Shown here: piece after piece, positions 1 to 33,244 of the stretch
How positions within the stretch are numbered: position 1 is the stretch's first letter
Layout: each line of letters starts with the position of its first letter
Assembly (NCBI GenBank): GCA_021800795.1
Contig: JAJYYO010000006.1
Coordinates: forward strand, 1-64,000
Direction of reading: 5' to 3'
Length of the DNA: 64,000 bases
Origin: Pseudomonadota bacterium
Lineage (GTDB): Bacteria > Pseudomonadota > Gammaproteobacteria > Burkholderiales > Gallionellaceae
Notes under the pieces: model-generated
Told to the model about the DNA's origin: nothing
Seen by the model: only the letters and a program-made list of their open reading frames with translations
Database searches by the model: none
Translations under genes and position numbers: made by a program

Positions 1-2220
1 ATAAAAACTACCGAGATAGCTGGCCGGATAATTCTTCAGCAAGTCGGGTGTGGCGATGACGAAAAAATTCACCCGCATCGAATCCCATTGCACGCGCCGC
101 AAACTGGTGACGGGCGCCCTGAACCGGTTGCCGGCCACATCGTAAGTCAATTCGTCGCCAAGATGAATATTCAACGTCCTGGCGATACCCTCTTCGACAG
201 ACAACTGCGCGTCATCATTCTGTCCTTCACGCAACAACTTGGGGCGCAGCCCATTAGTTGTGCGGGGAATCGATGATGACATGACGGATCTATCGTCATA
301 GTCAGAATTGAGTTGTCCTATCAGACCCTTGCGGTCTCTGCCCTCAGTCGTCTCTCTGGTGTCCCACCATTTCCCGCTCGCCAGCGTATTCCAGGCCGGC
401 ATCTTGTCGGAATAGGAAAGATTGAACTCGCGCTCCACCAGCCCGCGCGCTCTGGGCTCGGGATAATCCGCACCGTTAACCGCATGGTCATTTATCGCAA
501 CCAGACGGCCTCTTACCATGGGCAATAGCTGCGGCGCCGGCAAATCTTGCCGTGCAAAAAAATCCCGTATCGCCTGCTGCTGATCGGGCTGTATGCTCAC
601 CACGAAGCGGTTGGGCGTATCCGGCGGCAGCTTGTCCTGCCAGCTTTGCAACAAATCACCGCGCACCAGCGTCAACACCAGCAATGCCATGCCGCCCAGG
701 CTGAGTGCTGTCACCTGTACCGCCACGCCGCGTCCGTGTCGCGTCAGATTTTTGAATGCCTGCGCGATGACTCCGCCCGCGGCTTTTCCGGCAAAACGGC
801 CAAGGCCATTCAGCAGCAGCCAGGCCAGCGCGCCTGCCGCGAGCAACCCTGCCAGCAGGCCGCCCAGCACCATAAAACCCAGCTTCAGGCTGCCCGCCTG
901 CCATAAGAACAGTGCACATAGCACCAGCGCTGCCACGCCGTAAATCAGCCAGCCACGCGTTTCTGGCAGTCCCATCTCGCGGCGCATCACGCGCAGCGGC
1001 GACACGCGGCGCAGTTGCAGCAAGGGAAGGTAGGCAAAACCCAACAGCAAGGCGAAGCCGCTCACCGCCGCCTTGATCGCGGGCAATACACCCGGTTGCG
1101 GCAGACCAGCATCCGGCATGATGCTGCTAACCAGCGCCGCCTGTGTAACGAAGGCCATCAGCAAGCCCGCCGCCACCGCCAGAAATCCGGCCAGTAAAAA
1201 CTGATACAGAAACAGCCGCAGCACCTGATTTTGTTCAGCGCCCAGACAGCGCATCACCGCAACGCCATCCAGATGGCGCGCCACATAGCGCCTTGCCGAA
1301 AGCAGAATCGCCACGCCGGCCAGGATGGCAGTCGAGAGTGCGGCCAGCCCCAGAAAATGTTCGGCGCGTTCAAGGGCTGTGCGGATTTCCGGGCGCGCGT
1401 CGGTCACATCTTCCACTTTCTCGTTGCTGTTCAGCGGCAACGCCTGACGAAATGCCGCCACCTGCGCCGCGTCGCCTGCGACCATCATCCGATAAGTGAT
1501 GCGGCTGCCTTCCCGCAGCAGGCCGGTGGATGCCACATCGCTCTCATTCATCAGCACGCGCGGCGCAAAACCTGCAAAACCGACAGCCTGATCGACATCC
1601 TTCACGATGCGCGCGGCAACGATGAATTGCTGCGAACCGATACCCACTTTTTCACCCACATGAAGATCAAAGTGACGCATCAGACGATCGTCCACCCACA
1701 CCGTCCCAGAAATCAACAGTTGCTTTTCTCGTTTGCCCCCTCTCCCTCCGGGATAACCAGCGACTTGTCCGCTTGCGGACTTAGTCGAATGGCTAGTAGT
1801 TTCATCAGAGGGTTGGGGTGGGGGAACCGACGTCGGACGCACATCCCCTCCACTCCCATCATCGATCTCTATCTTCCCCCGCAGCGGATAGCCCGCCTCT
1901 ACCGACTGAATCTCGGCCAGCATCACCCGCCCCTGATGCGACACCATGCTGGGAAAAGTACGGCTCTCCACCACGCGCAAGCCGCGCAGCTCTGCTCTTT
2001 TGCGATAATCGGCAGATATCGGGCGCGTGGACGTGATGCGCAGATCGGCGCCCAGCAGACTGGCTGCCTGCTGTCCCAGCGCCTGCCTCACCCGGTCGGC
2101 GAACAGTCCGACCGTGGCGAGGCTGCCCACCGCCAGCACCAGCGCCAGCAGCAGCACGCGCCACTCCCCGACCCGCCAGTCGCGGCGCAGCAAGTTGAGG
2201 GACAGGCGAAGGAGGTTCAT
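1..2220 (-). CDS. YbbP-like FtsX-family ABC exporter permease, partial at the left edge
   Basis: The reading frame starts at an ATG at 2220 and stays open for 740 codons to the window edge, so the C-terminus is missing. The N-terminus (MNLLRLSLNLLRRDWR, then a hydrophobic segment) and the late motif VTSLRRVQWDSMRVNFF are typical of large YbbP/DUF214 permeases with FtsX domains. These pair with YbbA-type ATPases to act on lipids or proteins at the inner membrane. The YbbA-like gene lies 0.8 kb upstream on the same strand, separated by a toxin-antitoxin pair. Odd feature: about 35 codons around residues 131-165 are encoded by a palindromic repeat (1728-1827), inserted in frame between YPLRGKIEID and SGTVWVDDRL, which are normally close together. 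The start has only a weak ribosome site. Confidence 0.85.
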   Translation of the reverse strand, partial: MNLLRLSLNLLRRDWRVGEWRVLLLALVLAVGSLATVGLFADRVRQALGQQAASLLGADLRITSTRPISADYRKRAELRGLRVVESRTFPSMVSHQGRVMLAEIQSVEAGYPLRGKIEIDDGSGGDVRPTSVPPPQPSDETTSHSTKSASGQVAGYPGGRGGKREKQLLISGTVWVDDRLMRHFDLHVGEKVGIGSQQFIVAARIVKDVDQAVGFAGFAPRVLMNESDVASTGLLREGSRITYRMMVAGDAAQVAAFRQALPLNSNEKVEDVTDARPEIRTALERAEHFLGLAALSTAILAGVAILLSARRYVARHLDGVAVMRCLGAEQNQVLRLFLYQFLLAGFLAVAAGLLMAFVTQAALVSSIMPDAGLPQPGVLPAIKAAVSGFALLLGFAYLPLLQLRRVSPLRVMRREMGLPETRGWLIYGVAALVLCALFLWQAGSLKLGFMVLGGLLAGLLAAGALAWLLLNGLGRFAGKAAGGVIAQAFKNLTRHGRGVAVQVTALSLGGMALLVLTLVRGDLLQSWQDKLPPDTPNRFVVSIQPDQQQAIRDFFARQDLPAPQLLPMVRGRLVAINDHAVNGADYPEPRARGLVEREFNLSYSDKMPAWNTLASGKWWDTRETTEGRDRKGLIGQLNSDYDDRSVMSSSIPRTTNGLRPKLLREGQNDDAQLSVEEGIARTLNIHLGDELTYDVAGNRFRAPVTSLRRVQWDSMRVNFFVIATPDLLKNYPASYLGSFY
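1728..1827 (-). repeat. Palindromic repeat copy R1 inside the permease gene
   Basis: Read on the minus strand this is the long repeat form, with the landmarks CTAGCCATTCGACTAAG, the stem GTCCGC-AA-GCGGAC, CAAGTCGCTGGTTATCCC and GGAGGG. It lacks the terminal GCGAGTTTCAC seen in copies R2 and R3. It is translated in frame by the permease gene, giving a peptide with PQPSDETTSHSTK and GQVAGYPGGRG and no stop codon. Confidence 0.85.
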
Positions 2221-2301
2221 ATTCTATTCACGGAAAAACTGCAGCAGGCCCACTCATACTTTCCAACCACACGGCTGCATATAAGCCTTCAGTGTGAAAA
2301 A

Positions 2302-2601
2302 TCATTGATTCTCGACCCGCTCAGCCCAGTAATCCGGGCGACGATGCTGATGTGACACGGCGACAATCCAGACCTCATTCGCTCTCAACACATATCGTAA
2401 AGTATAGGAAAACCGGTTCATCACGTAGCGCCGCACCTCCTGCATCTCAACCGGAAACAACAACGGTGAACCTGCAATCCGAAGTGTCGCCTCACGCACA
2501 TCGTTTTTGAAACGTGCCCCTAAACCGGACTGCTGACGCTCAAACCAGTCACAGGCATCATTCAATTCGTTATTGGCAGCCTCCGCGAAGCGAATCTTCA
2601 T
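2302..2601 (-). CDS. RelE/ParE-family type II toxin
   Basis: A 99-residue protein with the RelE/ParE layout: N-terminal MKIRFAEAANNELNDACDWF helix, a central GSPLLFP-type segment, and a C-terminal strand VWIVAVSHQHRRPDYW. Such toxins cleave mRNA at ribosomes or poison gyrase; which one cannot be told here. Its ATG overlaps the antitoxin stop codon (TAATG), so the two are translationally coupled with the antitoxin first. The pair sits between the ABC ATPase and permease genes that are adjacent in many proteobacteria, suggesting a later insertion. Confidence 0.85.
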   Translation of the reverse strand: MKIRFAEAANNELNDACDWFERQQSGLGARFKNDVREATLRIAGSPLLFPVEMQEVRRYVMNRFSYTLRYVLRANEVWIVAVSHQHRRPDYWAERVENQ

Positions 2602-2807
2602 TACTTGTCGCCGAACACTTCTTCAAATGAGCACATCTTCATGCGCCCATCATCACACGCCTTTGCCCTGAACAAAGCCTCTTCCGCCCAAATCCTGTCG
2701 ATTTCTTCGTCAGACTTATCCAGACTTTGCATGATTTTTTCGGCCACTTCATAGCGCTCGGCAGCCTTCAATTGCAGCGCCATATCGATAATTTCGAGCT
2801 TACCCAT
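2601..2807 (-). CDS. Addiction-module antitoxin
   Basis: A 68-residue acidic, helical protein (MGKLEIIDMALQLKAAERYE then KIMQSLDKSDEEIDRIWAEEA) of the putative addiction module component type that accompanies RelE/ParE toxins. The start at 2807 is chosen over a longer open frame to 2897 because a strong GGAGGAGA ribosome site precedes it and the upstream codons look non-coding. It probably neutralises the toxin through its C-terminal end and may repress the promoter in the 234-bp gap upstream; no operator was clearly seen. Confidence 0.8.
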   Translation of the reverse strand: MGKLEIIDMALQLKAAERYEVAEKIMQSLDKSDEEIDRIWAEEALFRAKACDDGRMKMCSFEEVFGDK

Positions 2808-3041
2808 CACTTTCTCCTCCGAAATTAAGCCATTACAGCTTATCCTACCTGACCGACTGTTATCGCGCCAGCAACCCTGTCCGCCAGCAGCTGACAAATC
2901 TTGAAACAGGAGTCAATCAACTCGCGATTTGCGTGTTTGACATGGTTTTTCAGTCTTCTAAACTTTAATCGTTTTGGCGGATCATTTTTTCACCGGGATT
3001 TTTCGTTAAGAGACGTGTATTTTGCCTGAATGGCCGCCTGA

Positions 3042-3707
3042 TTACACGATCTTGCCTGCCGCAAGGCGCAACTGTCTGCCGCAGCGGGCGGCCAGCGCCT
3101 CGTCGTGAGTCACCAGTATCAGCGTGGTGCCCTGAGCCCGGTTCAGTTCGAACATCAGGTCGATGATCTGCGATCCTGTTTCAGCATCGAGATTGCCGGT
3201 CGGTTCGTCGGCGAACAGGATTTTCGGATGCACGACGAAGGCGCGGGCCAGCGCCACGCGCTGCTGCTCGCCGCCTGACAGGTGTTTGGGCAGGTGATGG
3301 GCACGGGCCGTGAGACCCACCTCGCGCAACGATTCGACAGCGCGCAAGCGCGCATCGGCCACCCCTTGCAGCTCCAGCGGCAACATGACGTTCTCAAGCG
3401 CGCTGAGTGCCGGCAACAACTGGAACGACTGAAACACAAAGCCTGCCAGCGCGCCGCGCAGGCGGGCGCGTCCGTCTTCATCCAGCGCAAATAAATCCGT
3501 CCCATTCAACTTCACAGTACCGCTGGAGGGCACATCAAGGCCCGCCAGCAGGCCCAGCAAGGTGGATTTGCCGGAGCCGGATGCGCCGACAATGGCGAGA
3601 CTCTCACCCGACATGACTGTGAAACTTGCATCAAACAAGATGGTCAATGGCTGTTCGCCACTTAACACTTGCTTAGAAAGGCTCACCGCCTGCACAATCG
3701 CTGTCAT
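3042..3707 (-). CDS. YbbA-like ABC transporter ATPase
   Basis: A 221-residue ATPase of the MacB/LolD/YbbA type. Walker A GASGSGKST (residues 41-49), the signature LSGGEQQRVALARAF, Walker B ILFADEPTGNLD and the switch histidine in VTHDEAL are intact. It should energise the YbbP-like permease at 1-2220. The start at 3707 has an AAGGA site about ten bases upstream; longer in-frame starts run into tesA. Its ATG overlaps the tesA ATG on the other strand by two bases, so each gene must be transcribed from within the other. Confidence 0.88.
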   Translation of the reverse strand: MTAIVQAVSLSKQVLSGEQPLTILFDASFTVMSGESLAIVGASGSGKSTLLGLLAGLDVPSSGTVKLNGTDLFALDEDGRARLRGALAGFVFQSFQLLPALSALENVMLPLELQGVADARLRAVESLREVGLTARAHHLPKHLSGGEQQRVALARAFVVHPKILFADEPTGNLDAETGSQIIDLMFELNRAQGTTLILVTHDEALAARCGRQLRLAAGKIV

Positions 3708-4326
3708 GAGAAATTTTTCCTTAAAAACCATCTTACTGATTGCAGTGCTATGGCTGCCACAAATGGCGCAAGCCGCAGTGCATGTTGCACCGAAGAACAT
3801 ACTGGTATTCGGCGACAGCCTGTCGGCGGGCTACGGCCTGGAACTCACGGAAAGCTGGCCTTACCTTTTGCAACAGGAACTGAATCACAGCAATTTCAAA
3901 GTGCTGAATGCCAGCATCAGCGGTGAGACTACGCTGGGAGGACGCCAGCGCTTCGCCAGATTGCTGGAACAATATCATCCGGCGATCGTGATCGTGGAAC
4001 TGGGCGCAAACGACGGGCTGCGCGGCTTCAGCGCGGCGGATATCGAGGACAACCTGAATGTCATTCTGGAACAAATCAACCAGGCTCGCGCCAAAACCTT
4101 GCTGGTCGGCATGAAACTGCCGCCCAATTACGGCGAACCTTACATCACGCAATTTCAAAACGTGTTTCCGCGGCTGGCGGCGAAACACCGCATCAGCCTG
4201 CTGCCATTTTTGCTCGAAGGCGTGGGCGCGGATCAGTTCCAGGCCGACAACATGCACCCCGCCGCCAGTGCACAGCCACGCATTATGACAAACGTGCTGC
4301 AAGCCTTAAAACCGCTGCTGCGCTGA
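3706..4326 (+). CDS. tesA: TesA-like GDSL arylesterase / lysophospholipase
   Basis: A 206-residue periplasmic SGNH hydrolase; E. coli TesA is about the same length. A signal peptide (MRNFSLKTILLIAVLWLPQM, cleavage near AQA) precedes the catalytic blocks: VFGDSLSAGYGL (nucleophile serine), a conserved Gly, GANDGLRG, and DNMHP (Asp-His pair). It likely hydrolyses acyl esters or lysophospholipids. The divergent arrangement with the YbbA/YbbP exporter matches that in E. coli and suggests a shared role in lipid handling. No clear ribosome site precedes the ATG at 3706, but later starts would lose the signal peptide. Confidence 0.88.
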   Translation: MRNFSLKTILLIAVLWLPQMAQAAVHVAPKNILVFGDSLSAGYGLELTESWPYLLQQELNHSNFKVLNASISGETTLGGRQRFARLLEQYHPAIVIVELGANDGLRGFSAADIEDNLNVILEQINQARAKTLLVGMKLPPNYGEPYITQFQNVFPRLAAKHRISLLPFLLEGVGADQFQADNMHPAASAQPRIMTNVLQALKPLLR

Positions 4327-4365
4327 CCTGCTTGTTATATCGCCACTCAAACCAACCACTGTACA

Positions 4366-4488
4366 CGTTCCCTCACCCCCGTCCCCCCTCTGGTGAAACA
4401 ACTAGCCAATCGACTAAGCCCGCAAGCGGGCAAGTCGCTGGTTATCCCGATGGGCGAGGGGTACGGTTCGTCGCTACGCGAGTTTCAC
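4366..4488 (+). repeat. Palindromic repeat copy R2
   Basis: A 123-base intergenic copy of the long form. It runs from CGTTCCCTCACCCCC through CTAGCCAATCGACTAAG, the stem GCCCGC-AA-GCGGGC and AAGTCGCTGGTTATCCC, to GCGAGTTTCAC. It differs from copy R3 (30785-30907) at only about five positions. Its last bases supply the stop codon of the convergent sppA gene. Confidence 0.9.
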
Positions 4489-5429
4489 CGCAGCGAAATC
4501 CCGCTGCCCTGAGTTGAGTAGCCTATCGCGCTCATCACGCCCATGCCGAAGCGTTTAGCCAGTCTGTCGGCAATACCTTCCTTCACCGTAAAATCCACGA
4601 CGTTTTCGGCCTTGATCACATCGCGCGCTACCGATTCCACCGTACCGTACCCGTCCGCCAGTCCCATTTCCACGCCGGCCTGACCGTTCCACACCAGCCC
4701 GCTGAAAGTATCCGGGGTTTCCTTCAGACGCGTGCCGCGCCCGGCTCTGACCACGGCGATGAACTGCTGGTGTATCTGGGCCAGCATCTGCTTGGCGTAT
4801 TCCTGCTGATCGGGACGAACCGCCGAGAAGGGATCCATGAAACCCTTGTTGCTGCCGGCGGTCACCAGACGGCGTTCCACACCCAGCTTTTCCATCGTTC
4901 CGGTAAAACCGAAGCCATCCATCAACACACCGATGGAGCCGATCAGACTGGCCTTGTCGACAAAAATCTTGTCGGCTGCTGCCGCCACGTAATAACCGCC
5001 GGACGCGCAAACATCACCCACCACCACATACAAGGGAACGGCAGGATATTTGGCGCGCAAGCGGCGAATTTCGTCGTTGATCTGGCCTGCCTGAACCGGA
5101 CTGCCGCCCGGACTGTTGATGCGCAGGATCACGCCCTGAGTATCCTTGTCCTTGAAAGCATCCTGCAAACTCGGGATCAGGTTGTCGGCGCTCGCCGCAC
5201 TGTCAGCGGCAATCACGCCCTCCATGTCCACCAGCGCTGTATGCTTGCCCGTACTCAGCGCGCTTTCGCTCTTGCCCATCCAGCCCATGAAGACAAACAG
5301 GACGATAAAAAGATAACCCAGGGTGAGCACCTTGAAGAAGATACCCCAGTGCCTGGCGCGGCGCTGCTCCTGAACGGCAGACATCGCCAGCTTCTCCAAC
5401 ACATCGCGTTCCCAATTTTGCTCTGACAT
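4485..5429 (-). CDS. sppA: SppA-type signal peptide peptidase (S49 family)
   Basis: A 314-residue, short-form S49 protease anchored by one membrane segment (about residues 27-50). The serine in GDVCASGGYYVAAAA and the lysine in AGSNKGFMDPF fit the Ser-Lys dyad of this family, and the INSPGGSP loop is present. It degrades cleaved signal peptides in the inner membrane. The TGA stop lies inside the end of repeat R2, so the C-terminus (QGSGISLR) may have been set by the repeat insertion. The HAD phosphatase gene lies 19 bp upstream on the same strand. Confidence 0.9.
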   Translation of the reverse strand: MSEQNWERDVLEKLAMSAVQEQRRARHWGIFFKVLTLGYLFIVLFVFMGWMGKSESALSTGKHTALVDMEGVIAADSAASADNLIPSLQDAFKDKDTQGVILRINSPGGSPVQAGQINDEIRRLRAKYPAVPLYVVVGDVCASGGYYVAAAADKIFVDKASLIGSIGVLMDGFGFTGTMEKLGVERRLVTAGSNKGFMDPFSAVRPDQQEYAKQMLAQIHQQFIAVVRAGRGTRLKETPDTFSGLVWNGQAGVEMGLADGYGTVESVARDVIKAENVVDFTVKEGIADRLAKRFGMGVMSAIGYSTQGSGISLR

Positions 5430-5448
5430 TTTATTCCTTAAGTTTTAG

Positions 5449-6105
5449 TTATGCGTTGGTCCTGAACCATGCACGCAGTTGCGAAAAATCATGCATCAGC
5501 GCCAGCGGTTTCAACTCCAGCAACTGCTCCGCCGGATGCGCGCCGAAGGCGACCGCCACCACATCCACACCGGCATTCCGGGCCAGCAGCACATCGTGCG
5601 TGGTATCGCCGACCATCAGGGTACGCCCGGCACTGACAGCCAATTCTTCCATCAGTTCAAACAACATGGCCGGATTCGGCTTGGAAAAAGTCTGCTCTGC
5701 CGTACGCGTGGCATGAAAATAGTGCTTCATCCCCGAAGACTCAAGCGCCCTTTGCAAACCGGCGCTGTTCTTGCCGGTTGCCACACCCAGCGCATAACCC
5801 GCCTCATGCAACTCGGCGATCGTCTCGCGCGCCCCCTCGAACAAGGGGATCGCCTGATCCTGCGCCAGAAAATGATGGCGATAGCGCGCCACCAGCGGCT
5901 CATACATCGCTTCCGGCGCATCCGGTACAGCATGACGCAATGCCCGGCTCAATCCCAGTCCAATCACATGTCGCGCGGTTTCATCGTCTGGAACGGTCAA
6001 ATCCAGATCGCGGCAGGCGGATTGAATCGATCCTGCAATAATCGCAGTGGAATCCATCACCGTGCCGTCCCAGTCGAACACAATCAAATCGTAACGTTTG
6101 CTCAT
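5449..6105 (-). CDS. HAD-IA family phosphatase (phosphoglycolate phosphatase-like)
   Basis: A 218-residue HAD hydrolase. Motif I is FDWDGTVMD (nucleophile D11, acid D13), motif II is the T in GVATGK, motif III is the K in FSKPNP and motif IV is MVGDTTHD. A helical cap lies between motifs I and II, as in Gph and pyrophosphatase-type HADs. The natural substrate is unknown; small sugar phosphates or phosphoglycolate are typical. It probably forms a two-gene operon with sppA. In related bacteria these genes follow rluC; here rluC is 2.5 kb away with rlmM and an EamA gene between. Confidence 0.85.
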   Translation of the reverse strand: MSKRYDLIVFDWDGTVMDSTAIIAGSIQSACRDLDLTVPDDETARHVIGLGLSRALRHAVPDAPEAMYEPLVARYRHHFLAQDQAIPLFEGARETIAELHEAGYALGVATGKNSAGLQRALESSGMKHYFHATRTAEQTFSKPNPAMLFELMEELAVSAGRTLMVGDTTHDVLLARNAGVDVVAVAFGAHPAEQLLELKPLALMHDFSQLRAWFRTNA

Positions 6106-6177
6106 TCAAGCTTTCATGCAAAGCGCGAATATTAGCACTTTCGCGCATGCTTTCCCAACCTGTGACACAATACGCGC

Positions 6178-7521: not shown

Positions 7522-7556
7522 CCCAACCCGATTAAAGTTTTTGCTTTCAAATCAAC

Positions 7557-8459: not shown

Positions 8460-8602
8460 AAATTTAGTCCGGCGGCGGCGCCGCCAACGATAATGATGTG
8501 ATGAGCAGCCATGTAATAAACCCTCTGGTTTATAAGCAAACGCTTAATTTTAACCTCATAGGGTAATCCGCTAATTCAGGGCATCAGAAAGATACAAGTC
8601 CG

Positions 8603-9547: not shown

Positions 9548-10100
9548 TATGCTTATACTTCGCCGTTCGCGCGTTTTGGATTGGGTAGGGATACAGCCGA
9601 CGATTTCCGACTGATTTGTACAGTTCTGATTGTTGCACAGGCGCTCTGCGCCCCCGCCAACCGCAACCCGGTTAATATCGCTCACCGGAACCAGCAGTGA
9701 TAGTAATTGATTTACGCGCTCAAAGCACCTGTGGATTTCCGCAACAGGGCAGACGAGTTGCAACACTGATTGAGCCGGATTGGTAAGGGCGCCGCATGTC
9801 AGCAGCCTTTCTCATCCGGGAATTCTCCCCTGTTGCAACGAATGCCGTGTTGCCCAAAACAATTTAAGACCAACTACCAAAGAGAACCGATCTGACGACC
9901 CTTAAAGTAAAATTCGCTCACGCGTTCGTTTGCCTCCTTGCCCACTTGTGGGAGAGGATTGAGGCGAGGGAAACGGGTATGACGAGTTTATCTTCAGGTT
10001 ATGCCATACCCGTTGGTATACGCCGTCAGCAGCTCCTCTCACACGCCTAACCGCATGTAGCTTGAATCTTGCCCGTGTCAGAGCGCGGGAGACAACATAA
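9548..10100. other. rluC-rne intergenic region
   Basis: These 553 bases hold the divergent promoters and the rne leader; no convincing gene was seen. Repeat copy R6 (9907-9975) lies in it. A perfect 10-bp inverted repeat (AACGGGTATG at 9972-9981 with CATACCCGTT at 10005-10014) partly uses the end of R6 and would form a hairpin about 90 bases before the rne start. In E. coli the rne leader folds into hairpins that RNase E recognises for autoregulation; a like role here is inference. Confidence 0.5.
9907..9975 (-). repeat. Palindromic repeat copy R6, short form
   Basis: On the minus strand it reads CGTTTCCCTCGCCTCAATCC, then a small stem CCCAC-AA-GTGGG, then GGAGGCAAACGAACGCG and GCGAATTTTAC. 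It lacks the CTAGCC/CGACT middle of the long form and matches copy R5 in msrB over most of its length. It sits in the rne leader region. Confidence 0.75.
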
Positions 10101-23504: not shown

Positions 23505-23513
23505 AGGAAGCTC

Positions 23514-24920: not shown

Positions 24921-25028
24921 GGGGAAGAGTCCATCCGCCGTATTAAAAAATCCGGCGGATATCTGTAATCTCTCAAAAATATAGCTAAGCTGCTGGTTAA
25001 ATGACATCTTTAGGTAGATAATTCGGCA

Positions 25029-25592
25029 ATGCAAGAAATAAAAAAAACTGACGCCGAATGGCGCGCCGAACTCACTCCGGAACAATACAAAATATGTCGC
25101 CAGTGCGGCACGGAACCGGCATTTACAGGCGAATACTGGAATTGCCACGATGCAGGCATTTATCGCTGCGTGTGCTGCTCTCACCCGCTGTTCGATGCGA
25201 CCGCCAAATTTGAATCCGGCAGCGGCTGGCCCAGCTTCTGGCAGCCGCTAAAAGTGACTAACAGGCATGACGAAGAAACCACGTATGATGAAAATCGCAG
25301 CCCCTGCGTCCCTCACCTCAATCCTCTCCCGAAGGGAGAGGAGGCAAACGAACGCTTACGCGAGTCACACGTTAATGTATCAATACGCCGCGATACCAGT
25401 CCTCGCGAGGGGGACGCCGAAGGGTACCCGATGCCTGCGGCATCACCCAATCGCTGTCACGGCATGATACGCGATGAAGTAAACTGCGCCCATTGCGGTG
25501 CACACTTAGGTCACGTATTCCCCGATGGGCCAGCGCCCAGCGGATTGCGCTTTTGCATTAACTCAGCCGCTCTGGCACTCGATAGAAGCTAA
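25029..25592 (+). CDS. msrB: Peptide methionine (R)-S-oxide reductase MsrB with a repeat-encoded insertion
   Basis: A 187-residue protein, about 50 longer than usual. Zinc-site cysteines are C47/C50 (CVCC) and C153/C156 (CAHC); [11 protein letters not shown] and the catalytic C176 in GLRFCINSA are intact. The extra residues, about 91-140, lie between VT...YDENR and CHGMIRDEV, which are nearly adjacent in normal MsrB, and contain repeat R5 (25307-25370) read as [19 protein letters not shown]. The frame is preserved. The insertion falls in a surface loop by family knowledge, so the enzyme may still work. It heads an operon with yciB, yciI, bolA and a PpiC gene. Confidence 0.9.
25307..25370 (+). 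repeat. Palindromic repeat copy R5, short form, inside msrB
   Basis: It reads CGTCCCTCACCTCAATCC, the stem TCTCCC-GAA-GGGAGA, GGAGGCAAACGAACGC and GCGAGTCACAC. It lacks the CTAGCC/CGACT middle of the long form, like copy R6. It is translated in frame in msrB. A further inserted stretch to about 25448 includes the small palindrome GATGCC-TGC-GGCATC. Confidence 0.85.
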
Positions 25593-25595
25593 ACC

Positions 25596-26210: not shown

Positions 26211-26512
26211 TGCTTTATGCAATTACAGGCCTGGATGTGCCGGACAGTCTCGCCAGGCGTCAGGCATCTCGCCCTGCTCATGTGGCGCGCCTGCAAGCGC
26301 TGCAAGAACAAGGCCGCCTGATGCTGGCGGGTCCGTTTCCGGCTATCGATGCCGAAGATCCGGGTACTGCGGGGTATACCGGCAGCCTGATCGTGGCTGA
26401 GTTTGCTTCGCTGGCTGAGGCGCAAACCTGGGCGAATGAAGAACCCTACCTTGCCGGCGGCGTTTATGCTCATATCAACGTCAGGCCATTCAGAAAGACC
26501 TTTCCCTCATGA
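26210..26512 (+). CDS. yciI: YciI family protein
   Basis: A 100-residue protein with a ferredoxin-like fold: LYAITGLDVPDSLARRQASR, then HVARLQALQEQGRLMLAGPF and the conserved Asp-Pro in AIDAEDPGTAGYTGS, and HINVRPF near the end. A catalytic His-Asp pair is proposed for this family but the reaction is unknown. The ATG at 26210 overlaps the yciB stop, and its own stop overlaps the bolA start (ATGA). Confidence 0.9.
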   Translation: MLYAITGLDVPDSLARRQASRPAHVARLQALQEQGRLMLAGPFPAIDAEDPGTAGYTGSLIVAEFASLAEAQTWANEEPYLAGGVYAHINVRPFRKTFPS

Positions 26513-26772
26513 ACCGTATCGAAGCAATGCGAGCCCGCCTCGCCACACTCAAGCCGGTTTCTCTCGAAATCGTCGACGAAAGCCATAAACACGCGGGGCA
26601 TGCAGGTGCGCGCGACGGTGGCGGTCATTATTTGTTACAAATTGTCACAACTGAGTTCACCGGAAAGACTACGATGGCGCGCCACCGCATGATATATTCC
26701 GCACTGGGAGAAATGATGAAGCGTGAAATACACGCCCTCAACATACAGGCGAACACGCCGGAAGAAATTTGA
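26509..26772 (+). CDS. bolA: BolA family protein
   Basis: An 87-residue BolA-like protein (MNRIEAMRARLATLKPVSLE, the His-rich DESHKHAGHAGARDGGGHY and MIYSALGEMMKREIHALNIQ). BolA proteins bind monothiol glutaredoxins with an iron-sulfur cluster and some bind DNA. The conserved His in the SHKHAGH segment could be a cluster ligand. It overlaps yciI by four bases. Confidence 0.92.
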   Translation: MNRIEAMRARLATLKPVSLEIVDESHKHAGHAGARDGGGHYLLQIVTTEFTGKTTMARHRMIYSALGEMMKREIHALNIQANTPEEI

Positions 26773-26803
26773 ATTTTTGTTTTTTATTTTTATGAGGACT
26801 TAC

Positions 26804-27589
26804 ATGTTGAAAACTCACAATCTGGCAGCAATGACCATTCTGGCCGCACTGGCAATCAATCCTGCTTTCGCCGAAGACAAATCCGCTGCCGTGGTGAATG
26901 GCGTCTCCATTCCGCAGGAGCGCGTGGAAATGAGCGTGAAAGCCGCCGAAGCACAGGGTCGTGCAGACAATCCTGAATTGCGCAAGGCCATTCGGGACGA
27001 TCTGATCAACCGCGAAGTAATCGTTCAGGCTGCCGTAAAACAGGGCCTGGATAAGACACCCGCTGTCGTTGAACAAATCGACGTAGCCAAACAGAACGTA
27101 CTTGTGAATGCATTTGTACAGGATAGCATCAAGAAAACCCCGATTACCGATGCACAGCTCCTGCAGGAATATGACACTCTCAAGGCCAAACTCGGCGATA
27201 AGGAATACGAGGTAAGCCACATTCTGGTTAAAACCGAAGCCGAAGCTAAAGAAATCATTGCGAAGCTCGAAAAAAAGGCTAAATTCGAAAAGCTTGCTGA
27301 AAAGTCTATCGATACCGGCTCCGCAGCACATGGCGGATCACTGGGCTGGACAGTACCGAAAAATCTGGTTGAACCCTTCGCCAACGCCCTGCTGAACCTG
27401 AAAAAAGGCGAATACACCAGGGTACCCGTACAAACACAGTTCGGCTGGCACGTCATCAAGCTGGACAATATTCGCCCGCTGAAGGTGCCGAGTTTCGAAG
27501 AATTGAAACCTCAGTTACAACAGCGTCTGCAACAACAGGCAATACAGAAAACCGTTGCCGATCTGCGCGCAGCAGCAAAAATAGAATAA
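26804..27589 (+). CDS. Periplasmic PpiC-type peptidyl-prolyl isomerase
   Basis: A 261-residue secreted parvulin. The signal peptide is MLKTHNLAAMTILAALAINP with cleavage after AFA; residues about 25-130 are a SurA/PrsA-like chaperone part and about 135-225 the PpiC domain (EVSHILVKTEAEAKEII, AHGGSLGWTVPKNLVEPFA, QFGWHVIKLD). It assists folding of exported proteins. The ATG at 26804 has an AGGA site six bases upstream; the open frame from 26723 overlaps bolA and is not used. A symmetrical terminator follows. Confidence 0.92.
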   Translation: MLKTHNLAAMTILAALAINPAFAEDKSAAVVNGVSIPQERVEMSVKAAEAQGRADNPELRKAIRDDLINREVIVQAAVKQGLDKTPAVVEQIDVAKQNVLVNAFVQDSIKKTPITDAQLLQEYDTLKAKLGDKEYEVSHILVKTEAEAKEIIAKLEKKAKFEKLAEKSIDTGSAAHGGSLGWTVPKNLVEPFANALLNLKKGEYTRVPVQTQFGWHVIKLDNIRPLKVPSFEELKPQLQQRLQQQAIQKTVADLRAAAKIE

Positions 27590-27600
27590 CGATTCCTGTC

Positions 27601-27655
27601 GGACAACAATCAAAAAGGCACCGGAAGGTGCCTTTTTTGATTGTCCGAAAACAAA
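27601..27655 (+). terminator. Rho-independent terminator after the msrB-PpiC operon
   Basis: A long near-perfect hairpin: GGACAA and AATCAAAAAGGCACC pair with GGTGCCTTTTTTGATT and GTCC around a GGAA loop. The T-run is on the plus side and an A-run on the other, so it could stop transcription in both directions. Confidence 0.88.
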
Positions 27656-27852
27656 TAACTTCCAGCCTAGATCGAAATACATAGACCGTTTGGCATATTG
27701 CCCATCCTCTCCTCAGCAGCTATGGTGCAATTGCCTTTTAATTTTGCTGGCTCGGCAGCGCGTCCAAGAGCAACGCGCTCAGCGCGATTGCGAAACGGAG
27801 ATAAAAACAGCCTGTTTTTGATTACTCATCAGCAATATCGGGGGAAAATAAA

Positions 27853-29133
27853 ATGACAAAAGAATCTACCGATGCAGCATTAACCGGAACCATTGGCCAT
27901 GCGTCCAGCCATGCTCATGCGGCAATACATTTTCAAAATATGATTCTGGCTATTACCGTATCCTGTCTAACGGGCTGCAGCACCTATTGGAGACCCACTG
28001 TCGGCATGCTGGCCCCACCAAAAGAAGTCCCGCAACACGCGATAGACAATATGCCTGGATTGTCAGCAGTTGTTAATGAGACCAACACAAAAATAACCAC
28101 CCTTGCAGACAAACGAGATTCGAGCCTGACGACAAACCGGATTTTGGGTGTTTCGACATTCGGTCTGGGACTGGCAGCTGCAGGCTATGGATTATATGGT
28201 GGCCATGCCAATGCGATGAAGAATCTCGCTTTCGCATCGGGCGGCGCCTATGTCGGCTCGTCGTTATTCACACCGCTTGCTCAAACCGAGATTTACCACT
28301 CAGGAATTCAGGCGCTTTCGTGCATTAACGACAAGGCCGCACGCACCCTTTACCAGATTGATGAAGATATTGAAACTTTGAAAAAAACGCCCCCTCTTGA
28401 TTCCAGCGCTTTCAGTTGCACACTATCCGGCAATGGAATTATTGAACAGAAAAATGCGTATAACAAAGCCAAATCAGCAGAAATGCTTGCAACATCCAAA
28501 GATTACAGCCTTGCCCAAACGGCAAGAAGCGCCAGCAACAATGTACTCATGGAACTGGACAAACAGCTCATCGCGTTGACCCCCAATCCTGACGCCATTT
28601 TGAATGCGGCCAAATCAATATTGCCTTCAGGAGGAATCAGCTCTGTAGGAATCAGTTCTGGAGAAGTCAGTTTGGCAGGTATTAGTACAGACAAACAGCT
28701 GCTACTAAAAAGGAGGAAAGAAAAACGCTCCTGCAAAGAACAGGAACAAGCCAGTGCAGACACCCGTTTGAATGAGCGCACAGCGAACTATCAGACGATA
28801 GAAAAATCGCTGATTGAAGCACTGAACTATATGGATGGCCTCTCATCCGCATGCGTATTGGACGAGAAACCCGTTACACCCGTCACGCTTTCCCAGGATG
28901 AAGTAACGGTTACAAAAGACATTAAATATGTGAATGTCGTAATTAGCGGCGGCAGAGAACCCTACTTGATAACACATTCAGATATACCAGGGTTGATCGT
29001 TAATTTCATTCAGCCAAGAACTATCAATATCATTTCGACTACTGGCCTTCAGGCTGGCGATCACAAAGTAGAAATCAGGGATAATTCAACCGTCACCACA
29101 CCCAGGATACTGACAATTAAAGTACCTAAATGA
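27853..29133 (+). CDS. Unknown A+T-rich lipoprotein-like protein
   Basis: A 426-residue protein I do not recognise. A hydrophobic stretch MILAITVSCLTGCSTYW holds a lipobox (LTGC), but it lies about 30 residues from the first Met and lacks a basic n-region unless the upstream part counts. A Gly/Ala segment near residues 95-140 (LGLAAAGYGLYGGHANA) may be membrane-associated. Residues about 255-280 repeat Gly-Ile-Ser units, a charged patch (LLLKRRKEKRSCKEQEQ) follows, and the last 80 residues look like a beta-rich Ig-type domain. Codon use is more A+T-rich than the neighbours, suggesting acquisition. A GGGGG purine-rich ribosome site precedes the ATG. Confidence 0.7.
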   Translation: MTKESTDAALTGTIGHASSHAHAAIHFQNMILAITVSCLTGCSTYWRPTVGMLAPPKEVPQHAIDNMPGLSAVVNETNTKITTLADKRDSSLTTNRILGVSTFGLGLAAAGYGLYGGHANAMKNLAFASGGAYVGSSLFTPLAQTEIYHSGIQALSCINDKAARTLYQIDEDIETLKKTPPLDSSAFSCTLSGNGIIEQKNAYNKAKSAEMLATSKDYSLAQTARSASNNVLMELDKQLIALTPNPDAILNAAKSILPSGGISSVGISSGEVSLAGISTDKQLLLKRRKEKRSCKEQEQASADTRLNERTANYQTIEKSLIEALNYMDGLSSACVLDEKPVTPVTLSQDEVTVTKDIKYVNVVISGGREPYLITHSDIPGLIVNFIQPRTINIISTTGLQAGDHKVEIRDNSTVTTPRILTIKVPK

Positions 29134-29168
29134 CCATATATTGGCTAAAATGTTAGTTAAAAATCAAC

Positions 29169-29942
29169 TCAAATCCCCCGGCTCTTCCTGATCAGGTCAT
29201 GTGCCAGCTGAATCTCCTTGGCCTGTTCGGTTGCCATGGCGATCATGTCCGCCGGCATGCCCTGTCCGATCAGCTTGTCAGGGTGGTACTGGCTCATCAG
29301 ACGACGGTAGGCGCGCTTGATCTCGGCATCGGTGCTGTCCTTCGTGACACCCAGTGCCTTATAGGCATCCTCCAGCGCTCCTGCTTCACCCGCCTGCCCT
29401 CCTGAAAAATGCGATTGATTCAGCACCATGTCCATCAACTGCTTGAAGGCGGCCTGATCGTAGCCCAGGCGGGCGGCTATATCGGCGAGCAGCGCTTGTT
29501 CCGCCGGATGAAAATGCCCGTCAGCCAGCGCCATCACGATCAGATAAACCAGCAACATCTGCCTCAAGTTACGGGTATGCCCGCAAATAGCCATGAACCG
29601 CTGGCAAACGGGCGCGATGTCAAATGCGGCATCCGCGCCCTGCCTGAACCAGACAATTGCCTGGCTGCGGTGATCGGAAGTCATGCCCAGCTTCTGCATG
29701 AACTGCTCGACATGATCTATCTCATCCTGGGAGACAACCCCGTCGGCCTTGGCCAGCTTGCCCATGGCGATGAACACCGTTTCCAGGAACACACCCTGAC
29801 GCAACGCATTCTGCAAAGGGTTGATCGCACCCGCGCCATACGCTTGCATGCGATCAAAAAACGACCCGATAAAAAGGCCCGCCAGCGCCCCGAAGAATCC
29901 GAAAAAATAATAACCCGCAACAAAACCGATGAACTTGAACAA
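29169..29942 (-). CDS. djlA: DjlA-like membrane-anchored J-domain co-chaperone
   Basis: A 257-residue protein: an N-terminal Gly-rich membrane segment (GFVAGYYFFGFFGALAGLFIGS), a TerB-like helical domain (residues about 50-165, AKADGVVSQDEIDHVEQFM, ALADGHFHPAEQALL) and a C-terminal J domain with the HPD tripeptide in RRLMSQYHPDKLIGQG. DjlA stimulates DnaK ATPase and affects capsule and stress signalling in E. coli. The start codon is TTG at 29942 with GGAG five bases before it; no suitable ATG is present. Confidence 0.9.
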   Translation of the reverse strand: MFKFIGFVAGYYFFGFFGALAGLFIGSFFDRMQAYGAGAINPLQNALRQGVFLETVFIAMGKLAKADGVVSQDEIDHVEQFMQKLGMTSDHRSQAIVWFRQGADAAFDIAPVCQRFMAICGHTRNLRQMLLVYLIVMALADGHFHPAEQALLADIAARLGYDQAAFKQLMDMVLNQSHFSGGQAGEAGALEDAYKALGVTKDSTDAEIKRAYRRLMSQYHPDKLIGQGMPADMIAMATEQAKEIQLAHDLIRKSRGI

Positions 29943-30026
29943 GACGACTCCAGGGTAAAAAGTTAAACCAAAGCATCCGGGATGGGTTCACGCCTGCCCT
30001 TTCGGGCAGCAAAGCGCTTTCCCGCA

Positions 30027-30680
30027 TCAAGAGTTCAGTGTCAGCAAAAAAACGTTTTCCTGCATGCTGCTCAAACCGCGCTCGACAAAGCGCGGGTTAT
30101 CCGGCAGTGCATCGACCTGCTTTAACAGGCGCACTTCCGCATATTCGCGATAGAGCGATTCCACCTCGTCGACGGATACCGCAAACGGCGGCCCTGACAT
30201 TTCCGCCTGCGGATAATCGAAAGTGATGAGCAGAATCCGGGTTCCAGGCGGCAATATGCTCACCAGATGGCACACGTAGCGCTCGCGCAATTCAGGCGGC
30301 AGGGCGACCATCGACGCGCGGTCGTATACCGCGCTCACCCTTGCCACATCATCAACGCACAGGTCGAAAAAATCACCGCACAGTATGCGTATATCATCCG
30401 CTTCAAAGCATTCAAATTTCCCGCTGCGAACGCGATGCGCCGTGTAGCCGTTTTCCTCGAAAAATGCCTGCGCCGCAATCGGACTCAGTTCCACACCAAG
30501 CACCGAAAGGCCCTGCTTGCGCAACCACAGCATGTCAAGACTTTTACCGCACAGCGGCACGAACACCAGACTGCCGTCGTCCTGATGCGGCCAATATTGC
30601 CGCAGGTAAGGGTTAATCTCGTCCTGATGAAAGCCGGTTTGCTCCAGCTCCCAACGTTCCAGCCAAAATTCTTTTTTCAT
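30027..30680 (-). CDS. tpm: Thiopurine S-methyltransferase family protein
   Basis: A 217-residue SAM-dependent methyltransferase. The N-terminal WLERWELEQTGFHQDEINPYL, the SAM-binding VFVPLCGKSLDMLWL, GVELSPIAAQAFF and VYDRASMVALPP are characteristic of bacterial TPMT, which methylates selenium and tellurium oxyanions and thiopurines. The possible link to selenium handling with the Sec system at 50-59 kb is only suggestive. A GAGG site precedes the ATG. Confidence 0.92.
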   Translation of the reverse strand: MKKEFWLERWELEQTGFHQDEINPYLRQYWPHQDDGSLVFVPLCGKSLDMLWLRKQGLSVLGVELSPIAAQAFFEENGYTAHRVRSGKFECFEADDIRILCGDFFDLCVDDVARVSAVYDRASMVALPPELRERYVCHLVSILPPGTRILLITFDYPQAEMSGPPFAVSVDEVESLYREYAEVRLLKQVDALPDNPRFVERGLSSMQENVFLLTLNS

Positions 30681-31166
30681 TTTGATGTCCTCTAACGATC
30701 ATGGCAAGAAAGCCGCCCCTGATGATGCAATGATTTTCGCAGGAATATTGTCCAGTGGACAATAACTCGCAAACCCGCCATGATCGTTCCCTCACCCCCG
30801 TTCCCCCTCTGGTGAAACAACTAGCCAATCGACTAAGCCCGCAAGCGGGCAAGTCGCTGGTTATCCCGGAGGGCGAGGAGTACGGTTCGTCGCTTCGCGA
30901 GTTTCACGTTAATGGGCATGGCGTCAAGTATAGCGCACCCGGGTAAATCAGCGTGCCCTGCCAATCAATACCAGACGTAAATGCAAAAAAAGTTCGTTGC
31001 TGTCATAAACCCGTATCGCCCGGCTTGCTGTATCCTGCATTGGTGATATTGCTTCAACCGGAATAATTCCGCAAGGGCGCAAAGCGCCCGAATCATTTGA
31101 TCTCCTGGCGGATTACGCAGATAATTTTACATTCCAGTATCGAATGCCATCCAGCGGAGCTAGCCA
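30681..31166. other. tpm-MCE operon intergenic region
   Basis: A 486-base gap between divergent genes. It contains repeat copy R3 (30785-30907) and a small perfect hairpin GGGCGC-AAA-GCGCCC (31075-31089) without a T-run. It must hold the promoters for tpm and the MCE operon, but no consensus pair stands out. No further gene was seen. Confidence 0.5.
30785..30907 (+). repeat. Palindromic repeat copy R3
   Basis: An intergenic 123-base long-form copy, about 96 percent identical by eye to R2 (4366-4488), with the same ends CGTTCCCTCACCCCC and GCGAGTTTCAC and the stem GCCCGC-AA-GCGGGC. Confidence 0.9.
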
Positions 31167-32294
31167 GTGATAAAACGCGCTGCCCAAACGGAACCACCCC
31201 GACTGTCCATCGATGGACCGGTTGCGCGTTGCGCGGGAGCCTGGATAGTACGGGAAATCGCGCCGCTCGAAAAAAATCTGCCAGACATATCCTGGCCGGT
31301 CGCAGGCGATCTGATATTCGACTGCGCCGAGCTGTCGGCGCTCGATACGACAGGCGCCTGGTTGCTGCACCGCACTGTCCATGCACAGGAACTGCGCGGA
31401 TTGCGCGCCACACTGACGGGCTTGCGGCCTGAGTTCGCCGCCTTATTGCAACTGATTGACTCCAGCGCCTTCGCGCCTGAAGCTTGTGCACCCGCCATTC
31501 CAGATGTATTGACCCGCATCGGACTATCGTCCTGGCGCGGACTCACAGGGCTGTATGACATGCTGGCCTTTATCGGCGAGACTTCGGTCATCCTGCTGCG
31601 CTCGCTGATTCAGCCACACCGCATCCGCTGGCGTCCCATACTCCGCAACCTGCAGACCGCAGGATTTGAGGCGTTGCCGATTGTCGGACTGCTATCCTTC
31701 CTGATGGGACTGGTCATCGCGTATCAGGGCGCGGATCAGTTGCAGCGCTTCGGCGCCAATATTTTCATCGCCGATCTGGTGGGCTTATCCATGCTGCGCG
31801 AGTTATCCCCGCTGCTCACCGCCATCATCGTTGCAGGGCGCTCCGGCTCCGCCTATGCCGCGCAGATCGGCACGATGAAAGTCACCGAAGAAATCGATGC
31901 GCTGCGCACCATCGGTATATCACCTGCCGAATTGCTGGTCTTACCCAAGTTGATCGCACTGATTATCGCGCTGCCGCTGCTTACCGTTTATGCCGACATC
32001 ACCGGCGTACTCGGCGGCATGATCATGGCGCGCTCTAAACTCGATGTCAGTTTCGATGTGTTTCTCGACCGTTTGGGCGACGCGATTCAACTGTCCTCCT
32101 ATCTGACCGGCGTCAGTAAGGCGCCGGTCTTTGCCGTGATCATCGCGCTGGTCGGGTGCTATCAGGGCTTGCAGGTTACCGGCAGCGCCGACAGTGTAGG
32201 CCGGCAGACAACGGTGAGCGTGGTGCAGGCCATTTTTCTGGTCATCCTGTCCGATGCCTTGTTTTCCATTGTGTTCAACTGGTTGCAGATATGA
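31167..32294 (+). CDS. MCE-system ABC permease with N-terminal STAS domain (MlaB-MlaE fusion type)
   Basis: A 375-residue protein. Residues about 10-115 form a STAS-like domain (LIFDCAELSALDTTGAWLL), which in the Mla system is the separate MlaB. The rest is an MlaE permease (LPIVGLLSFLMGLVIAYQG, LRELSPLLTAIIVAGRSGSA, EEIDALRTIGISP). It should be the inner-membrane core of a lipid transporter moving phospholipids between the membranes. The start is GTG with GGAG nine bases upstream. It overlaps the ATPase gene by four bases (ATGA). Confidence 0.92.
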   Translation: MIKRAAQTEPPRLSIDGPVARCAGAWIVREIAPLEKNLPDISWPVAGDLIFDCAELSALDTTGAWLLHRTVHAQELRGLRATLTGLRPEFAALLQLIDSSAFAPEACAPAIPDVLTRIGLSSWRGLTGLYDMLAFIGETSVILLRSLIQPHRIRWRPILRNLQTAGFEALPIVGLLSFLMGLVIAYQGADQLQRFGANIFIADLVGLSMLRELSPLLTAIIVAGRSGSAYAAQIGTMKVTEEIDALRTIGISPAELLVLPKLIALIIALPLLTVYADITGVLGGMIMARSKLDVSFDVFLDRLGDAIQLSSYLTGVSKAPVFAVIIALVGCYQGLQVTGSADSVGRQTTVSVVQAIFLVILSDALFSIVFNWLQI

Positions 32295-33244
32295 AAAACG
32301 TAACGCACATCGCCCTTTCTCCCTTCCCTCACCCAAACCCTGATGAGGCAACTAGCCATTCGACTAAGGCATCAAAAAACGATGCCCAAGTCGCTGGTTA
32401 TCTCCCGGAGGGGAGAGCGCAGCGAGGGGGGCGAAGCCGGACAAACGAATCGCTACGCGAATTTCAAAATACTGAGCCGGTCATCGCCATCGGCAACCTG
32501 CATTCCCGTTTCGGTCAAAACGTGGTGCATGACAACATCAGCCTGAGCGTGGCGCCGGGTGAAATTTTCGCGCTGGCAGGCGGCAGCGGTTGCGGCAAGT
32601 CCACCCTGCTGCGCACCATTTTGCTGTTGCAAAAGCCGGTGTCGGGTTCGATCCGGGTGTTCGGCCGGGAAGTGCTCGGCCTGAACGACGAACAAGCCCT
32701 GCCGCTGCGCCGCCGCTTCGGCGTGATGTTCGAGCGGGGCGCACTGTTCGGTTCGCTCACCGTCGCGGAAAACGTGGGCATGGTGCTGCGCGAACACACA
32801 AGACTTGGGAAAGCCTTGATAGCGGAAGTGGCAGCACTTAAAATCGCCCTGACCGGGCTACCCCCCGATGCAGGCGCCAAGTATCCGAGCGAATTGAGCG
32901 GCGGCATGCGCAAACGGGCGGCGCTGGCGCGCGCCATCGCACTCGATCCCGAGTTGCTGTTTCTCGATGAGCCCACCGCAGGACTCGACCCCTTAAGCGC
33001 TGCCGGCATAGACGAGCTGATACTGAGCTTGCGCAATGCGCTGGGATTGACCATCATGCTGGTCACGCATGACCTTGATCTGCTGTGGCGCGTAGCCGAC
33101 CGGGTCGCGGTGCTGGGTGAAGGCCATATTCTGGGAGTCGGCAGCATGGCGGAATTATCGAAAATGGAACATCCGATCATCAGGAACTATTTCTACGGGC
33201 CTCGCGGACGCGCCGCGAGTGAACAGGCATGGAAGAAAAGGTAA
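32291..33244 (+). CDS. MlaF-like ABC ATPase with a repeat-encoded N-terminal extension
   Basis: A 317-residue ATPase. Walker A GGSGCGKST, the signature LSGGMRKRAALARAI, Walker B LLFLDEPTAGLDP and THDLDLL are intact. The ABC domain starts only near residue 60 (PVIAIGNLHSRFG); the first 60 residues come mostly from repeat R4 (32322-32467). No ATG, GTG or TTG lies in frame between the first codon and the ABC domain, and the ATG overlaps the permease stop, so translation must pass through the repeat. It powers the MCE transporter and overlaps the next gene by 16 bp. Confidence 0.92.
   Translation: MKNVTHIALSPFPHPNPDEATSHSTKASKNDAQVAGYLPEGRAQRGGRSRTNESLREFQNTEPVIAIGNLHSRFGQNVVHDNISLSVAPGEIFALAGGSGCGKSTLLRTILLLQKPVSGSIRVFGREVLGLNDEQALPLRRRFGVMFERGALFGSLTVAENVGMVLREHTRLGKALIAEVAALKIALTGLPPDAGAKYPSELSGGMRKRAALARAIALDPELLFLDEPTAGLDPLSAAGIDELILSLRNALGLTIMLVTHDLDLLWRVADRVAVLGEGHILGVGSMAELSKMEHPIIRNYFYGPRGRAASEQAWKKR
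32322..32467 (+). repeat. Palindromic repeat copy R4 encoding the MlaF N-terminus
   Basis: A long-form copy: TTCCCTCACCCAAACCCTGA, CTAGCCATTCGACTAAG, the stem GGCATC-AAAAAAC-GATGCC, CAAGTCGCTGGTTATC, CCGGAGGGGAGA, and the end CGAATCGCTACGCGAATTTCAA. The inner stem has a sequence unlike R1-R3 but still pairs perfectly. It is read as PHPNPDEATSHSTK ... QVAGY ... RTNESLREFQ. Confidence 0.88.

Follow-up and report, generated by a model that had tools for sequence, protein, structure and literature searches.

Palindromic repeats that lie in frame within protein genes are best known from Rickettsia, with some cases described for ERIC, Correia and other small repeats. Rickettsia palindromic elements (RPEs) are palindromes of 100–150 bp, found both in frame in conserved protein genes and in intergenic DNA, and the accessible text of four papers regards them as tolerated inserts (PMC2229807, PMC10969869, PMC3767692, PMC2635572). 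Repeats with a triplex motif (TM) are, according to the part of the source available, reported in more than 260 genomes (PMC4666352). Here we analyze the palindromic repeats in positions 1 to 64,000 of contig JAJYYO010000006.1 from a member of the iron-oxidizing Gallionellaceae (assembly GCA_021800795.1); this 64,000-nucleotide stretch is referred to as the window. A first-pass annotation had listed six copies (R1 to R6) of one palindromic repeat family, three of them read in a single constant frame within protein genes, and had named RPEs as the precedent, an apt analogy. We conclude, with a probability of roughly 0.83, that the repeats are non-autonomous mobile palindromes tolerated in frame within proteins, rather than a single ancestral protein motif.

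Two nested elements in the window

All six copies are present in the window (Table 1). R2 and R3 match at 96% over 123 nt, and R1, R4, R5 and R6 were recovered as inverted-repeat partners and by covariance models. The repeat is, however, a mosaic of separable modules: an outer unit of about 115 nt, composed of modules C and A, and an inner hairpin module, B. Module A (~68 nt; alignment of 25 copies) has the consensus TTCCCTCACCCAAACCCTCTCCCGGAGGGAGAGGGGACAAACGAATCGCTACGCGAGTTTCACGTTAA, and module C (TAACGGGCATGGC..GCCATGCCCG) frequently lies ahead of it; copies of the outer unit (C then A) in which both ends can be discerned measure about 112–118 nt. The triplex/hairpin motif CCCTCACCC..CCCTCTCCC..GGGAGAGGG is part of this unit, which may lie between TA steps. 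The insert in MsrB, for example, is 112 nt plus TA, and the terminal inverted repeat of C-A is unclear beyond ACG. R1 to R4 combine A and B, whereas R5 and R6 are A without B, so that the proposed single family resolves into two nested elements.

As annotated, R1, R4 and R5 are read through without a stop in genes for an FtsX-type permease, MlaF and MsrB, while R2, R3 and R6 are intergenic. A constant frame holds only for B in R1 and R4, which is read in both as F1 and gives the peptide DETTSHSTK..QVAGY. The outer palindrome reads PPPQPS..GGRGGKR in R1, PHPNP..NESLREF in R4 and PHLNP..NERLRE in R5: R1 departs here from the frame of R4 and R5 because different T's of CCCTCTCCC are occupied by B. 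R1 lacks the NExLRE end.

Table 1. Repeat copies in the window, their B modules and host genes
Feature	Position	Strand	Remarks
FtsX-type permease gene, host of R1	1-2217	-	cut by contig end; FtsX domain match
R1	1728..1827	-	A (3′ end lost) carrying B, within the permease gene; B in F1
B of R1	1753..1807	-	54 nt net; covariance model
R2	4366..4490	+	A+B, intergenic
B of R2	4391..4445	+	
R6	9902..9972	-	A without B, intergenic; covariance model
msrB, host of R5	25029-25592		MsrB match; insert 114 nt net = residues 78-115, which fits 38 extra MsrB residues
R5, extended	25259..25374	+	start about 25259; degenerate C before A, between two TA steps, in msrB
R3	30693..30907	+	C with inner segment, then A+B, intergenic
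B of R3	30810..30864	+	
MlaF-like ABC ATPase gene, host of R4	ATG at 32291		ABC_tran match
R4	32320..32467	+	A (right arm lengthened) carrying B, N-terminal part of the ATPase gene
B of R4	32341..32401	+	60 nt net; frame F1

Two of the host genes hold further repeats. A second, different palindromic insert lies at about 25399-25456, at MsrB residues 125-143, and is missing from most aligned orthologues. A second insert site of the permease gene, at about 205-360 (-), contains a degenerate stretch resembling B together with a repeat of another type (..SSSIPRTTNGLR..GQND).

Module B: structure and insertion site

Copies were counted in the window's own genome with covariance models. For B the best 150 of 1473 candidates were scored, giving at least 85 matches, 15 of which have E above 1e-4; for A the best 150 of 1430 gave at least 144, of which 130 were carried forward, 123 of these lying away from B matches and 114 of the 123 being read. 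The sample of relatives comprises 121 B copies in at least 117 stretches.

B consists of TGATGAAACAACTAGCCATTCGACTAAG, a variable apical hairpin and CAAGTCGCTGGTTAT, and forms an imperfect hairpin with a fixed 12-nt 5′ tail (TGATGAAACAAC). Among the own-genome matches listed its net length is 54 or 60 nt in 25 of 27 genic copies and 33 of 58 others; the same holds for 104/121 copies of relatives. Its insertion point is a C|T step, where nothing beyond the T is duplicated, and the hairpin loop of A is a favored target. The preceding base is C in 72 of 85 own-genome matches; of the 121 copies in relatives, 87 have C there and 34 have T. B occurs at either of the two T's of A's CCCTCTCCC, alone (L015, L017), or nested at C|T steps in other B copies (L009, L013, L164, L185), and for this reason we treat it as a separate element. 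In several loci (L009, L013, L164, L179, L195) B and units resembling it are nested in multiple layers, again at C|T steps.

The stem covaries. Standard pairs fill 95.7% of cells (62 distinct rows), and there are 67 double-change cells against 14.2 in shuffles, with none of 500 shuffles as high; sliding the partner strand abolishes the signal. For this count 68 matches, taken from 58 selected sources, were aligned to the covariance model, towards which the result is biased to that extent; the stem looked the same when 22 distinct rows were aligned with MAFFT. A variant, B-prime, has TAAGTA/TACTTA as its outer stem in place of TAGCCA/TGGTTA. It was seen in five copies: four, with a net length of 59 nt, leave none of the six frames open, whereas the fifth (C6:95706, 60 nt) has open frames.

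Other ideas about the repeats were discarded. A known RNA family was rejected for want of an Rfam fit: the R3 stretch was unmatched by Rfam covariance models at E up to 1, and the window copies were unmatched at gathering score. A replication-strand bias of B was rejected on comparison with GC skew (37/85 in the own genome, 64/121 in relatives). A check for phage carriage found B on one viral contig.

Genic copies and their host proteins

Genic B copies were set by hand from the flanks, the open reading frames (ORFs) through each copy and a Pfam scan of 30 ORFs; gene names beyond the Pfam label are our reading, and three long-ORF cases (L017, L185, L196) were excluded because the copy lies upstream of the start. 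Among the matches listed, 27 of 85 B copies lie in open genes. The stop-free frames of B are F1, F2 and R0 (with few R2 exceptions), and all three are used, on both strands: 14 copies are read in F1, 10 in F2 and three in the reverse frame R0. A likewise occurs in several frames. In-frame insertion is real and more extensive than first annotated, and the constant frame was a small-sample impression. Taken together, the repeats occupy about thirty protein genes, essential ones among them, and leave the frame intact.

The F1 hosts are the FtsX permease, MurC, HsdR, CbiB, an RnfC-like protein, MlaF, a kinase-like ORF (HATPase match below cut-off), a GTPase, a haem-oxygenase-like protein, LeuS, WaaA, an SBP_bac_5 protein, CcmH and HupH. 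F2 is read in Gmd, an AcrB-type RND (resistance-nodulation-division) pump, a pyridoxal-phosphate (PLP) decarboxylase, a GspA/ExeA-like protein, ApbE, MutS, PolA, HsdS, an APH-fold protein and RlmN, and R0 in HsdM, a VWA protein and a Dpp-type ABC ATPase. In 13 of the 27 (FtsX, MurC, HsdR, LeuS, WaaA, SBP_bac_5, Gmd, the RND pump, GspA/ExeA, MutS, PolA, HsdM and the Dpp ABC protein) the copy is bordered on either side by a match to a family, structure or orthologue.

Alignments with solved chains place the boundaries of the extra segments. In MutS, query residues 327 to 359 correspond to chain residues 332 to 331; the equivalent pairs are 585 to 636 and 568 to 570 in LeuS, 301 to 335 and 280 to 283 in Gmd, 341 to 382 and 331 to 335 in MurC, and 417 to 452 and 448 to 452 in HsdM, where the right side is weak and Pfam spans the copy. 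The copies in PolA and RlmN precede the Klenow part and the matched part, respectively. For hosts with A only, query 73 to 109 equals chain 64 to 65 in Fpg and 75 to 141 equals 92 to 101 in MsrB, while the extra segment of AcnA is just partly gapped in the alignment. The hosts compared in this way, with solved structures or with orthologues, show a bounded extra segment, in agreement with the original suggestion of a tolerated protein insert. LeuS (L158) has a second extra segment of about 40 residues, at 352-393, which is not of B type.

Copies with A alone were examined as selected examples; by Pfam, in-frame inserts of this kind are present in MetG, HsdR genes and others. Two further arrangements were noted. 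MetG contains, before its tRNA_bind domain, a whole DUF559 domain plus A peptides (L348; G000:C6, about 105450-105915), and in a single open frame of 676 aa an EPSP synthase domain is joined to a cytidylate kinase domain through a C-A unit (L388; G000:C28, near 237675).

Net length is divisible by three in 26 of 27 genic copies and in 39 of 58 others (p = 0.0024). This bears on the possibility that the message loses B or A, or that they are passed over (bypass, splicing), so that no extra peptide is made. The elements are compact and structured, as such a process might favor, and the host proteins are known here from genes alone; but skipping needs neither an open frame nor a length of 3n, yet the 13 hosts with two-sided matches are open through the copy. 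We consider skipping very unlikely. Nor do the frames imply design: in mononucleotide shuffles of B three open frames of six are the commonest outcome (34%), and hence we make no claim that B is built for translation. The repeat family itself is far above chance.

Of the 58 non-genic B matches, 22 have a long open frame to either side on one strand. By eye these look like two neighboring genes (e.g., HisA/HisF-like, AtpA/AtpG-like) and not one split gene, so that in this layout check copies that mostly break genes were not seen.

Orthologues and distribution

Orthologues reveal host loops that are empty in some species and filled in others. Fewer than 20% of the 29 aligned MsrB orthologues have residues 78-115 and 125-143, and all 13 of those listed lack them. 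Among 20 MlaF orthologues, inspected by eye, the N-terminus of one from another genus (L208) includes C and A in frame, and that of another (L211) has a different extension; the rest lack the repeat peptide there. The MurC loop comprises 9-10 residues in 21 of 29 orthologues and 24-36 residues, with A-derived peptides, in the remaining eight; these peptides are in two frames, three being of QPSP type and five of NPLP type, and B occurs in this loop in the own genome only. At site 1 of the FtsX permease, 14 of 29 orthologues carry 14-62 residues, of several types by eye, and 15 carry 0-6 (one a cut ORF). Across species this permease contains B in three frames: F1 in the window, F2 in L266 (site 2, by peptide) and L040 (site 1), and R0 in L111 (site 2). 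Such re-use of host loops favors independent insertions, as far as sequence comparison can tell.

In relatives, 37 of the 121 B copies lie within an ORF of 250 aa or more (ORF length being the sole criterion), with 21 in F1, eight in R0, seven in F2 and one in R2. B is present in 62 of 80 sampled genomes of the family, covering 14 of 15 genera, although under strict filters certain genomes of the same genus (G048, G065, G077) gave no match. Of 300 genomes of the order 24 have B, 15 of them outside the family, with 1-18 matches each (scoring being capped at 19). A pattern scan of named genomes (at least 117 stretches) returned mostly Gallionella, Gallionellaceae, Sideroxydans and Nitrosomonadales metagenome-assembled genomes (MAGs), with fewer from Betaproteobacteria, Gammaproteobacteria, Sideroxyarcus, Sulfuricella and Ferrigenium.

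Could the insert peptides instead be ancestral, functional protein segments that happen to be palindromic? Some do recur (PHPNPLPEGEG.., DETTSHSTK..). However, the same DNA also occurs outside genes and in genes that are unrelated, it is used in several frames and it lies on both strands; such frame use already contradicts an ancestral peptide, and most aligned orthologues lack the insert peptide. No single ancestral insert emerges: 21/29 MurC proteins are without one and 8/29 have A peptides in two frames. An ancestral origin is thus scarcely credible. With mixed frames, and orthologues free of the insert, the repeats look like tolerated mobile inserts.

A model of insertion and tolerance

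From the copies, modules, insertion sites, frames, extra host segments and insert-free orthologues, all observed directly, we infer the following course. The outer unit C-A would insert, possibly between flanking TA, and B would enter at C|T, favoring the hairpin loop of A. Entry would probably occur in any frame and on either strand, at random, by way of moving enzymes; selection would remove most genic insertions, and the survivors would be copies with a net length of 3n and one stop-free frame of the element in register. On translation the host protein would gain about 18-50 residues and would still work.

Several observations weigh against this account of tolerated mobile inserts. No DNA-level empty site is shown for any B outside A or B. 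The 14 remaining genic hosts have one-sided matches or the copy near an end: MlaF, ApbE, HsdS, PLP decarboxylase, CcmH, the RnfC-like protein, the GTPase, the haem-oxygenase-like protein, HupH, the VWA protein, the kinase-like ORF (sub-threshold HATPase), CbiB, APH and RlmN; in the last of these (L187) B is truncated (53 nt net, E = 0.7). Frame use is uneven (14:10:3, p = 0.03), and the 3n-length contrast is partly built in, because genic copies are defined by an open frame through the copy. Broken hosts were sought by open-frame layout and eye alone, without homology search. The head of C and the tail of A are both recognizable in just 20 of 121 A matches read. The structure model of MsrB is weak (mean predicted local distance difference test, pLDDT, 66), with residues 78-107 below 50, as are 23-37. 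Finally, that the proteins are made and active is something we infer, and it too counts on this side.

Candidate enzymes

One candidate for the movement of B is a Y1 HUH transposase of the RAYT/IS200 type (RAYT, REP-associated tyrosine transposase), which mobilizes repetitive extragenic palindromic (REP) sequences. The hairpin of B is bulged, its 5′ tail is fixed and insertion at C|T leaves no duplication; TnpA-REP, in the accessible part of the report, cuts at CT beside the REP (PMC8266576); and Y1 genes are present in 64 of 80 family genomes. Yet the B alignment has no GTAG next to the hairpin, one of 35 Y1 loci read by regular expression holds a B and none an A, the own-genome Y1 genes adjoin other repeats (by eye), and B has no strand bias against GC skew, as noted above. 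We regard this origin as unlikely, and RAYTs were set aside as the mover given that the Y1 genes read are not beside A and are beside a B in a single locus. Two own-genome Y1 (RAYT-like) genes, L033 and L035, are flanked by their own unrelated repeats (by eye), the former between what we take to be gatA and gatB. A gene bracketed by B copies was also considered and rejected: eight close pairs enclose ordinary-looking genes or no long ORF (by eye). Among Y1 genes and genes between close B pairs, no mobilizer of B was found.

For A the evidence points, tentatively and at less than even odds, to the endonuclease-like DUF559 protein (PF04480), which may mobilize A-type palindromes as an insertion sequence (IS)-like unit, with lone C-A copies as its non-autonomous derivatives; this would add to the explanation by tolerated mobile inserts and does not oppose it. 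In metG of G000 a DUF559 gene lies in frame between inverted A matches at C6:105446 (-) and C6:105864 (+). All six DUF559 loci among the sequences compared adjoin A-type palindromes, five of them on both sides (by regular expression), and one (L118, a Betaproteobacteria MAG) has a B-carrying palindrome on its other side. In four of the six (L267, L270, L274, L278, from four genomes of the family) the palindrome-bracketed DUF559 gene is directly beside the FtsX permease gene. Fourteen outside records were hand-picked from 43 matches and compared with 2577 overlapping control windows, drawn from five of the 14 records and the window studied here. Flanking inverted repeats exceed all control windows in seven of the 14 (Azospirillum lipoferum, two Sinorhizobium, Deinococcus, Sphingomonas, Novosphingobium and Pseudanabaena), and 13 of 20 DUF559 loci lie above the 99th percentile.

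The link is nonetheless an association only. Seven of the 14 outside loci fail the 99th-percentile test; the two E. coli records are alike, as are the two Sinorhizobium records, and since L267, L270, L274 and L278 share one position, about nine passing positions are independent. The repeat sequences beside DUF559 differ between phyla, DUF559 could be cargo, and in the accessible parts of the literature searched, including papers naming DUF559, there is no mention of a link to palindromes. A broader proposal, more speculative again, is that DUF559, a nuclease-like family sparsely covered in the literature, transposes triplex-forming and similar palindromes, or serves as their homing enzyme, in several phyla (Pseudomonadota, Deinococcota, Cyanobacteriota), that its non-autonomous palindromes flood genomes of the Gallionellaceae type as in-frame inserts, and that B, a distinct second parasite with a hairpin, enters their loops at C|T. 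If true, the proposal would establish a new class of minimal mobile element and offer a handle on the spread of triplex repeats.

Other features of the window

A pair of 50-nt inverted repeats (37196-37245 and 37415-37464) is 82% complementary and 169 nt apart. A tRNA-Sec gene at 50642-50733 (+) and a SECIS_3 element at 59069-59127 (-) both exceed Rfam gathering scores; together they indicate that the organism probably uses selenocysteine.

Comparison with known systems

The literature searched contained nothing on B or on these repeats in Gallionellaceae; for A it yielded the triplex motif. According to the accessible text of PMC4666352 the head of module A is this motif, and A has its form: a CCCTCTCCC-loop-GGGAGAGGG hairpin plus a third GGGTGAGGG/CCCTCACCC arm (25 copies against the TMECO table, by eye). 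The Enterobacter sp. 638 repeats CCCTCTCCCXX(X)GGGAGAGGG, as given in the part of PMC2869309 available, also resemble the head of A. In the same portions of these two sources both kinds of repeat are described as mostly intergenic, without A's tail, an inner B or in-frame inserts (PMC4666352, PMC2869309). The DUF559 association brings a candidate enzyme to triplex-type palindromes.

B shares with REP/RAYT systems a small hairpin and a C|T target that resembles the CT cleavage site described in the available text of PMC8266576; it differs in that its hairpin lacks GTAG and that the cognate Y1 transposase is not flanked by the repeat (35 loci). Miniature inverted-repeat transposable elements (MITEs) with open frames (the 107-bp Correia element, ERIC and YPAL), as presented in the accessible part of PMC2229807, are likewise non-autonomous and form in-frame fusions; they have TA ends, which C-A may share, but in C-A the terminal inverted repeat is not clear beyond ACG.

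In the way they work the elements resemble RPEs, with which we compared them by description: here too, copies are found both in frame and between genes. The present elements nevertheless occur in other bacteria (no record title in the named-genome scan names Rickettsia), and they are two nested elements with an inner unit of 54/60 nt. B is read in three frames, including one on the reverse strand, and the same host loop is re-used by different elements. The inserts lie in core enzymes (MurC, LeuS, MutS, PolA, MetG and AcnA), and related species, in which the same loop is empty or differently filled, are natural replicates that make the gain of protein segments from mobile DNA directly testable.

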